A DNA stretch of 64,000 nt from Hydrogenovibrio crunogenus (GTDB lineage Bacteria; Pseudomonadota; Gammaproteobacteria; Thiomicrospirales; Thiomicrospiraceae). The DNA lies in NCBI RefSeq assembly GCF_004786015.1, contig NZ_CP032096.1, positions 124,001 to 188,000 on the forward strand. Direction: 5' to 3'. Within the stretch, counting starts at the first letter, position 1; the number at the start of each line of letters is the position of its first letter. Below the pieces are notes generated by a model. The model searched no databases, was not told where the DNA came from, and saw nothing but the letters and a program-made list of their open reading frames with translations. Of the stretch, positions 36,970 through 40,960 are shown one piece after another. The translations under genes and the position numbers were made by a program.

Positions 36970-38022
36970 CTAAGCCGCAGAATCAGACATGAAAGGGATT
37001 TCGTTTAAAGCTTGTTCAACCACGGCAGGGGCTAATAGATAGCCATGGCGATATAAGCCATTAATACGGGTGGTTTTATTTTCATGCAGGATTCGCGGTA
37101 AATTATCTTTTAATGCCGGGCGACAGTTAGTGAGCATTTTCACAATGCGCGCTTCTCCAAACCCGGAATGTACGCTGTAAACGGCTGAAAGCAACTCCAA
37201 ACTGGAGCGCACAGACATGTCACTTTGATCTTCGCTTTCAATTTCAGTGGCGCCCACCACATAACGATGGTTGGGACGTGGCACAATGTAAATTCGATAA
37301 CGCGGGTGCATTAAACGCACCGGTCGAGAAAGGGATACATCCGGTGCGTCGAGCCAAAAAACCTCCCCTCTGACACCACGAAGATCGGCAATATCGGGCT
37401 TAGCGCCCAAGCCTCGGGCATCAAAGACCCAATCGAAATCAACACAGGTTTCATTGGTTTCGATTTGACCGTCCGATACTCGGGACACAACTTGATGAGT
37501 TTTCCATTGAACAGAGGGGTGTTCCTGTAAGAAAAGCGTGCTTTTTTCCATGAACTGCTGCGCATTGACTTGCGCTTCCGTCGGCAGAAAAAATGCTTTT
37601 CTGTGCTGAGCGAGATCCGGTTCCAAAGCCGCAATTCCTGTTTGATCCAATGTCTCTATCGAGGCGGCAGCTGGAATTTTTGACTGTAATTGGGTAATAA
37701 AGTGCATTAACTCAGGCATGTCCGATCGATGAGCCGTGATTAAGCTGCCCTGTTTTTGAAACGCCTGCGGAATCTTTATCTGTGTCAACAGGTCAGGCCA
37801 AAGCTGAATGGATCGCAGGCCGGCATCAAATATGGCGGACTCGGCCGTTTCAAGTTCGGCAAAAGGCGCCAACATGCCTGCAGCCACCAACCCGGCCGCA
37901 TTTTCAGACGCATACGAATCTTTTTCAAATAAGGTTACTTTGTGACCTGATTTGACTAAGTTCAACGCTAAAATACGACCGACAAGTCCTGCCCCGGCAA
38001 TGCCGATGGTGTGTGTTGTCAT
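36970..38022 (-). CDS. thiO: Glycine oxidase ThiO
   Basis: 350 residues; FAD enzyme that oxidises glycine to dehydroglycine for thiazole synthesis under oxic conditions. Starts IGIAGAGLVGRILALNL, with AAGLVAAGMLAPFAE and the C-terminal YRHGYLLAPAV. ATG 38022 is preceded by GAGGAG; the longer frame overlaps noncoding sequence. Use of ThiO rather than ThiH fits an aerobe. Confidence 0.92.
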   Translation of the reverse strand: MTTHTIGIAGAGLVGRILALNLVKSGHKVTLFEKDSYASENAAGLVAAGMLAPFAELETAESAIFDAGLRSIQLWPDLLTQIKIPQAFQKQGSLITAHRSDMPELMHFITQLQSKIPAAASIETLDQTGIAALEPDLAQHRKAFFLPTEAQVNAQQFMEKSTLFLQEHPSVQWKTHQVVSRVSDGQIETNETCVDFDWVFDARGLGAKPDIADLRGVRGEVFWLDAPDVSLSRPVRLMHPRYRIYIVPRPNHRYVVGATEIESEDQSDMSVRSSLELLSAVYSVHSGFGEARIVKMLTNCRPALKDNLPRILHENKTTRINGLYRHGYLLAPAVVEQALNEIPFMSDSAA

Positions 38023-38076
38023 AATCAACTCCTCGCGTTGCGACAATAAGCGCCGCAACGATCTGAATAATCGAGA

Positions 38077-40032
<1,956 letters not shown>

Positions 40033-40075
40033 TTAGTCATTAAGATCATGCACTTGTCATACCGTTGAAAAGTAG

Positions 40076-40175
40076 AAAAAGGGACGTGATGATTGCTTTT
40101 AAAGTCCCTGTCTCTACTTGATGCGAAAGACTTTTACTAAAAAATCTTCTCGCTCAAAGGTATTTAAAAGCAATC
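40076..40175 (-). promoter_or_regulatory. Candidate riboswitch expression platform
   Basis: In the RNA direction: GATTGCTTTTAAA (40175-40163), then AGGGAC (40109-40104), then the exact complement TTTAAAAGCAATC (40103-40091), then GTCCC and five U (40085-40076). The AGGGAC/GTCCC hairpin with U run looks like a terminator, and the 13-base pairing is interleaved with it, so the two exclude each other. This suits transcriptional control downstream of the TPP aptamer. Confidence 0.5.
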
Positions 40176-40205
40176 TACAGAAAACAATCGGAGTGTGTTT
40201 CCTTA

Positions 40206-40324
40206 GAATCTTCTCTTCCCTACGCTGGCTTTAACCAGATCAAGTTCAACGGGCCCGACAGCCGGGAAATTGGTTTCCACTTAGTCGTCTCAGCACTTTG
40301 GTGTGCACCCCGAGAGATGGAAGA
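40206..40324 (-). promoter_or_regulatory. TPP riboswitch (THI element)
   Basis: On the minus strand: TCGGGGTGC, GTGCTGAGA, CCCGTTGAACTTGATCTGG, TTAAAGCCAGCGTAGGGA. These are the conserved blocks of the TPP aptamer, including the CUGAGA pyrimidine-sensor loop and the GCGUAGGGA closing region. It is upstream of thiC and represses the thi operon when thiamine pyrophosphate is plentiful. The aptamer ends about 236 bases before the thiC start, leaving room for an expression platform. Confidence 0.96.
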
Positions 40325-40325
40325 T

Positions 40326-40334
40326 ATTGTAACA
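40326..40334 (-). promoter_or_regulatory. Extended -10 promoter for thi operon
   Basis: TGTTACAAT on the minus strand gives an extended -10 element (TGn + TACAAT) placed so that transcription would start at the 5' edge of the TPP aptamer. No good -35 is visible. Confidence 0.5.
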
Positions 40335-40477: not shown

Positions 40478-40960
40478 ATGAACTGGGAAACGATGATCTT
40501 GAGCTCTTTGCATGCGATTGCCGCAGTGATTTGGGTTGGCGGAATGTTCTTTGCATATCGTGTTTTAAGGCCCGCAGCGGCTTCTTTAGAATCAAGAGAA
40601 CGCCTTATTTTGTGGGAAAAAGTTTTTCGACGTTTTTTTGGCTGGGTTTGGTTTTTCATCTTCGTATTAGTGATTTCAGGGTATTGGGATTGGTTAACGC
40701 GTCTCGGGCCGATTGAACAGGCTCCGTTATATCTACAGTTGATGGAATGGATTGGCTGGGTGATGGTTGGTTTGTTTACATGGTTGTTTTTCTGGCCGTT
40801 TGCTAAATTCAAAATACGGATGGCACAGTATGAGTTTGCGGAAGCCGGGCATATAATGAATACGAGAATGCGACCAGTGATTGCCATTAATCTGATGCTG
40901 GGGGTCATTGCGGTGGTGATTGGTGCATCAGGGCCTTTTTGGCCGGTGATTCCGTTTTAA
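40478..40960 (+). CDS. CopD-like four-helix membrane protein
   Basis: 160 residues with about four transmembrane segments and conserved LHAIAAVIWVGGMFFAY in the first, like CopD/COG5615 integral membrane proteins. Related proteins carry His residues that may bind heme or copper; H12 is present here. Function not established. AGAAAGGAAAG precedes the ATG. It faces the PilZ gene across a CCAGGCCTGG copy. Confidence 0.72.
   Translation: MNWETMILSSLHAIAAVIWVGGMFFAYRVLRPAAASLESRERLILWEKVFRRFFGWVWFFIFVLVISGYWDWLTRLGPIEQAPLYLQLMEWIGWVMVGLFTWLFFWPFAKFKIRMAQYEFAEAGHIMNTRMRPVIAINLMLGVIAVVIGASGPFWPVIPF

Follow-up and report, generated by a model that had tools for sequence, protein, structure and literature searches.

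Introduction

The leader of thiC in Hydrogenovibrio crunogenus raises the question of where a TPP riboswitch exerts its control. In the stretch of 64,000 nucleotides analysed here (the window), a TPP aptamer precedes thiC and is followed by two interleaved hairpins, one of them associated with a short run of U. Does TPP decide between these hairpins and thereby terminate transcription, as an initial annotation made from the sequence had suggested, or does control lie elsewhere in the leader? From the folding of this leader and its comparison with relatives we consider it fairly probable that it is a TPP OFF riboswitch for thiC, and with it the adjacent thiO-like gene, which would act mainly on translation initiation, possibly with a Rho-dependent follow-on as in E. 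coli.

Results and Discussion

The locus and the leaders compared

The following features define the locus.

38077–39969, minus strand: thiC, 630 aa (NF006763, Pfam ThiC)
36970–38058, minus strand: thiO-like glycine oxidase gene (TIGR02352, 250.3 bits, just below the cut-off of 250.8)
40200–40322, minus strand: TPP riboswitch aptamer RF00059 (cmscan 69.9 bits, gathering threshold 54.3, E 1.1e-11)
40326–40331, minus strand: –10-like TACAAT with TG directly 5' of it (sequence by eye)

The aptamer is the only gathering-level Rfam match in the 64-kb window, and the gene that starts about 230 nt 3' of it on the same strand was confirmed as thiC by its match to NF006763 (1060.5 bits) and to Pfam ThiC, which bears out the TPP riboswitch that had been placed before this gene. 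The thiO-like gene, for which a TTG start is listed, lies 18 bases 3' of thiC and the two probably form one operon. Judging from the sequence, the leader transcript would begin at about 40319. TG-containing –10-like motifs were seen by eye in the same position of the genus leaders; a consensus promoter scan did not list the TACAAT motif of the thiC leader. A small protein encoded divergently (window 40478–40960, plus strand) passes the Pfam CopD cut-off barely, with 33.3 against 32.1 bits.

TPP aptamers are present in 11/11 genomes of the genus and in 60 of the 62 genomes of the family, and 27 of 80 named thiC loci passed a screen with the TPP pattern. We compared ten thiC leaders from the genus, a small sample with some near-identical members, in which L002 is the window's own; among the 11 genus genomes G004 has a single TPP match and contributed no thiC leader.

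Two interleaved hairpins in the spacer

Between aptamer and thiC the window contains a long-range helix (A) and a hairpin (B) with interleaved arms.

40163–40175, minus strand: helix A, 5' arm GAUUGCUUUUAAA (exact complementarity)
40091–40103, minus strand: helix A, 3' arm UUUAAAAGCAAUC, within the loop of hairpin B (exact complementarity)
40123–40153, minus strand: additional hairpin between the arms of helix A, which appears as an insertion in the window's leader when the ten leaders are aligned
40104–40119, minus strand: hairpin B, 5' arm (folding)
40070–40085, minus strand: hairpin B, 3' arm, including the U5 run 40080–40076 (folding)

The arms of helix A, GAUUGCUUUUAAA and UUUAAAAGCAAUC, are perfectly complementary at 13 bases and not at 14, in exact agreement with the pairing of 40163–40175 and 40091–40103 in the initial annotation. 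The hairpin described there as a terminator-like AGGGAC/GTCCC-U5 does exist as well and is longer, as B reads AAGUAGAGA-C-AGGGAC / GUCCCU-U-UUUCUACUU with six upper pairs, a loop of 18 nt and nine lower pairs. Because of these lower pairs the U5 run (40080–40076) lies mostly within the stem and is not a free tail. Since the 3' arm of A occupies 13 of the 18 loop bases of B, full A and full B exclude each other, as had been proposed; a full pseudoknot with A inside B is unlikely by geometry for full helices, with only five loop bases left. The repeat exceeds chance expectation: an inverted repeat of 13 bases occurred in 48 of 3000 dinucleotide shuffles of 40076–40324, and the 64-kb window has five places with 13-base arms within 250 nt, of which the other four have arm starts just 14–34 nt apart. 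The folding of hairpin B gave z values of –4.2 to –6.6 against shuffles, varying with the ends chosen.

Helix A is found at the matching offset in eight of the ten genus leaders, with L016 and L021 lacking it. Among the long-range helices of each leader it ranks first in L002, L007, L005, L006 and L012 and second or third in L014, L010 and L011; it has 12 pairs in L014 and 13/14 in L007, and it is spelled differently in L010–L012. In L005 and L006 it consists of UGAUUGCUUUGGAG with CGCCAAAGCAAUUG, where two pairs are changed on both sides, which counts as one event at most because the two leaders are near twins. Single-leader support is modest to weak for A (p 0.0025 to 0.33 in eight leaders) and stronger for B (p 0.0005 to 0.07 in all seven leaders tested); L006, as the near twin of L005, was omitted from the hairpin B test, the growing-transcript folding, the within-genus swaps and the transience test. 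With regard to the covariation that had been named as a check, recurrence in 8/10 leaders and the two co-changed pairs stand on one side, and the single event at most, p values reaching 0.33 and the two leaders without A on the other. Since both sets of arms exist in the window and turn up again in other leaders of the genus, we can confirm the competing hairpins as something genuine that had been recognised in the thiC leader.

Is the choice between the hairpins made by TPP?

If the pair of hairpins were a ligand-gated intrinsic terminator, A would act as antiterminator without TPP and B with its U5 as terminator with TPP. The exclusiveness of A and B and their recurrence in the genus agree with such a device, and a transcriptional thiC TPP switch is known from Neisseria (PMC7237195). 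We folded growing transcripts with the aptamer either free or closed (consensus pairs held) and repeated this for a free aptamer against one that was cut off or masked. In the window helix A is at 0.94–0.98 at transcript ends 40091 to 40075, including 0.97–0.98 during synthesis of the U-tract, whether the aptamer is free or closed, and B replaces it at 40068 (0.85 free, 0.99 closed) and beyond. In the repeat the two modes agreed up to +18 (A at 0.63 v 0.66) and gave 0.47 v 0.01 at +24, and the latter values indicate a small effect of the aptamer after the U-tract. Helix A has no base in common with the aptamer's P1 and B does not overlap P1 either. The check by folding with and without aptamer closure thus did not support a ligand-controlled terminator/antiterminator, as A is the same both ways while the U-tract of the window is made, with a small aptamer effect afterwards; L007 and L014 differ later.

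When complete, helix A reaches 0.80–0.99 in the leaders run. Five of these seven (L002, L005, L010, L011, L012) lose it in both modes and end at 0.02 or below, with differences between aptamer states confined to the changeover, where L010 and L011 have the lower A when the aptamer is free. In L007 helix A remains at 0.41–0.60 from +36 and at 0.36 at full length with the aptamer free, against at most 0.02 when masked, and in L014 it is 0.41–0.90 from +30 (free) against at most 0.12, and 0.18 v 0.12 at full length. Thus L007, and L014 before full length, do fold in an aptamer-dependent manner and in the direction expected for gated termination, but only after the U-tract; while the U-tract of L007 itself is made, about +13 to +24, the two aptamer states differ little and in the opposite sense. 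In these models the retention of A in both leaders is the best hint of a coupling to the aptamer, even if it does not fit TPP-gated termination.

As a terminator, hairpin B is borderline. When all hairpin-plus-U sites were scored alike, with calibration from the 64-kb window only, its upper stem (–7.1 kcal/mol, tail 3.84) took the 9th place among 37 sites on its strand, behind eight sites of –9.6 to –15.1 kcal/mol and close to sites within ORFs; of these, the best on the same strand has –6.8 kcal/mol and a tail of 3.66, and two from the opposite strand reach –8.7/2.85 and –8.2/2.96. A consensus terminator scan with loops of 3–8 did not list hairpin B, whose loop has 18 nt and whose U's are paired. 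Two of the ten genus leaders combine a hairpin with a U-tract at B, the window's own and L007, where the site is stronger with –10.7 kcal/mol; the other eight have none at this place, B recurring among them without U-tract, and L011 has one weak hairpin-plus-U site away from B. A conserved free U-tract, as well as a strand shared with or controlled by P1 in the window, is therefore missing from the features of an intrinsic terminator of this class. On the growing-transcript folding, the rank of B and the U-tract in only 2/10 leaders, we reject ligand-gated termination as the main mechanism and regard it as very unlikely. Interleaved arms with a short U-run next to them easily mimic a terminator/antiterminator, and it is this tempting misreading that the comparison corrects, since the logic shared by the genus is located at the ribosome-binding site.

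A distal element complementary to the aptamer

Close to the start codon two further features overlap.

40004–40021, minus strand: distal element UCUUUUUACGCUGUUUUU, proposed antisequestor, complementary to the aptamer 3' strand
39969–40010, minus strand: SD-sequestor hairpin GUUUUUUUCA...UGAGAAAAAC (–12.7 kcal/mol), covering the SD-like AAGUGAG (39982–39976)

The distal element can form 13 pairs with CAGCGUA(G)GGAAGA (40227–40214) in the 3' strand of the aptamer, extendable into the aptamer loop, and it overlaps the 5' arm of the SD hairpin. It could be aligned as UUACGC(G/U)GUUUUU, in L016 CUUCGCGGUUUUU, in eight genus leaders (L006 and L021 left out), each with a U-rich arm next to it that is able to pair with the purine-rich SD region. 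In L010–L012 the aptamer AAGACC-GCGUAG...AGAG is complementary to the element CUCU..UUACGCGGUUUUU. When duplexes were scanned along the leader with 26 nt of the aptamer, the element was the best place in eight of the ten genus leaders (–16 to –22 kcal/mol) and second in L005 and L006, within 0.1 kcal/mol of the best place; in a second genus of the family it was best in 8/9 leaders. In favour of the element, 1 to 32 of 500 shuffles of its 32 nt pair equally well in nine leaders. Duplex tests against shuffles of single sequences gave weak significance: when the whole spacer was shuffled, the shorter duplex was equalled by 5 to 71 of 100 shuffles and is unexceptional in the majority of leaders. 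Five leaders of the second genus (L106, L112, L114, L117, L162) carry long insertions between distal element and SD, some with repeat-like palindromes, so that the duplex scan places the element 157–214 nt away from the ATG.

Do element and aptamer change together? In L021, the most divergent leader, both differ from the others and pair with –16.1 kcal/mol, while its aptamer reaches –9.4 to –14.9 on the elements of the others and their aptamers –4.7 to –9.8 on its element. No swap with the other eight leaders equals this pairing of L021 with itself, and L021, a single lineage, is the only leader of the genus with such a preference. The L016 aptamer shows no preference and pairs equally well or better with six other elements. 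Swaps across genera covered the final 75 nt 5' of the ATG; L104, L111 and L124 were dropped for want of an ATG, L009, L021, L107 and L169 were set aside, and in the extraction of family leaders the aptamer end was not recognised in L134, L143, L156, L172, L173, L177, L178, L179 and L180 and was mis-picked in L169. Aptamers of the genus gave means of –13.7 on their own elements, –12.6 on those of the second genus and –11.5 on those of a third, second-genus aptamers gave –13.7 on the genus elements and thus better than the –12.7 on their own, and third-genus aptamers gave –10.4 on their own against –10.2 and –10.7 on the others'. With the second genus preferring foreign elements and the third preferring none, the cross-genus swaps do not support co-change. 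In the third genus CUUCGC stands opposite a GCGAAG aptamer in 15 of 22 rows, with the CUUCGC place being best in only 7/22, and L154 keeps CUUCGC despite a GCGUAG aptamer. The swaps did not bear out a reading of this pair, or of the changes in L016, as compensatory.

A sequestor over the SD and the proposed translational switch

The SD-like AAGUGAG itself is weak. With the aptamer removed, the SD region is unpaired at 0.10–0.25 in nine of the ten genus leaders and at 0.67 in L021, so a hairpin pairing the SD, the mark of a translational switch, is common to the relatives. Forcing the extended duplex between element and aptamer opens the region to 0.47–0.81 in all ten, compared with the aptamer-removed fold (window 0.21 to 0.47, L010 0.11 to 0.64), and in the second genus it raises the openness in 8/9 leaders, L117 being unchanged. 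The forced fold is less favourable than the free minimum by 0 to 12.3 kcal/mol, with 8.1 for the window, and if the core duplex is forced alone the sequestor mostly persists (0.81). At equilibrium the SD region of the full-length window RNA is 0.09 unpaired with the aptamer closed or not. As the sequestor is kept in both states, the ON state would have to be kinetic or assisted by the ribosome. Before the SD is synthesised (ends 40009 to 39980) the duplex is present at 0.53–0.72 in the free ensemble of the window. The layout shared before the ATG, an aptamer-complementary element together with an SD hairpin, points to translational control.

The mechanism that we propose connects parts found by computation (aptamer, A, B, distal complementarity and sequestor, with their recurrence in the genus) through a direction and a means of control that we infer. 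Without TPP the aptamer 3' strand AAAGCCAGCGUAGGGAAGA would pair with the distal element before thiC and disrupt the aptamer, and the extended duplex would capture the U-rich 5' arm of the sequestor, leaving the ribosome-binding site usable; the opportunity for this ON state is most likely a time window that precedes complete synthesis of the sequestor. With TPP bound, the aptamer would retain its 3' strand and the sequestor could form over AAGUGAG-AUG, blocking translation. The spacer of about 180 nt from aptamer to distal element would fold into hairpins, with helix A as an early fold that is superseded by B as transcription proceeds, in the window apparently by timing and not by the ligand.

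Rho-dependent termination in the long G-poor spacer, once TPP has blocked translation, might also be the main control instead of a follow-on. This is known for E. coli thiC (PMC5234074), and by eye the stretch 40070–39990 is G-poor, but the sequestor together with the distal element might be enough to control translation. We regard Rho as the principal means as quite unlikely.

The succession of A and B could itself have been selected: A would keep hold of the spacer at first, and B would afterwards draw the distal element towards the aptamer, which would fix the time available for TPP sensing. Such a folding-order device can be reconciled with the translational switch. It would account for arms at matching offsets in eight leaders with the co-changed pairs of L005/L006, for the support of B in every leader tested, and for a helix A that is highly populated once complete and gone at the end in five of seven leaders. 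Against it stand the weak single-leader support of A, its absence from L016 and L021 and the incomplete exchange in L007 and L014. Moreover, of 198 shuffled spacers 55 showed a transient helix of at least 7 bp, as did just three of nine real leaders when measured alike, and we therefore rejected transience as a signal in itself. We regard a selected folding order as unlikely, and the fuller version, in which the A-to-B exchange sets the aptamer's TPP-sensing time and has become ligand-dependent in the L007/L014 branch, as very doubtful. If functional, the exchange would provide a testable example of folding order being under selection in a riboswitch spacer.

A second TPP riboswitch in the genus

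A second TPP riboswitch of the genus is found at L001:1501–1760 in the window's genome and in L003, L004, L008, L009, L013, L015, L017, L018, L019 and L020. It precedes a long ORF, which in L001, the only one tested, encodes a TonB-dependent receptor (Pfam Plug and beta-barrel). Its leaders are shorter than those of thiC; by eye, 10/11 have CCUGUCC or CCUGUUC 3' of the aptamer, able to pair with AGGAAC(A/G)GG at the end of the aptamer, and a CCUUUU/AAAAGG pairing over the SD is often adjacent. An unconstrained duplex search ranked the CCUGU(C/U)C pairing best in only 4/11. In G009 (L009/L021) about 200 bp separate two divergent TPP aptamers, of which one precedes thiC and the other a receptor-like ORF.

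Conclusion

In summary the switch of the window appears ordinary in kind, and its reading as a terminator is unlikely. A literature search, judged on titles and abstract openings, returned nothing on the Hydrogenovibrio thiC leader. Among Gram-negative bacteria, transcriptional riboswitches are described as rare (PMC7237195), and a general riboswitch survey reports translation attenuation as most common outside Firmicutes (PMC2258182). The switch of Neisseria meningitidis thiC likewise stands before a Gram-negative thiC and has exclusive hairpins; there, according to PMC7237195, TPP-driven P1 formation releases the 5' branch of a terminator whose end lies immediately ahead of the start codon. 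In our leader, on the other hand, A and B lie off P1, and B, which lacks a conserved U-tract, is separated from the ATG by about 100 nt.

The closer parallel is E. coli thiC, for which PMC5234074 describes an anti-P1 stem competing with P1 and an RBS-sequestering stem, together with Rho; by SHAPE the anti-P1 stem was seen in a stalled complex and is reported not to be the main form of full-length RNA without TPP. Both systems have a TPP aptamer before thiC and a pairing between a distal strand and the aptamer that competes with P1 and with a hairpin at the RBS and start. They differ in that the aptamer 5' strand is the protected one in E. coli (C7–G16, which we read as CUUGUCGGA with UCUGACAAG), whereas in our leader it is the 3' strand (CAGCGUAGGGAAGA), and helix A and hairpin B are present in the spacer. 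By this analogy the thiC leader of H. crunogenus is probably a TPP riboswitch with a platform like that of E. coli thiC, built with the other aptamer strand and another spacer.
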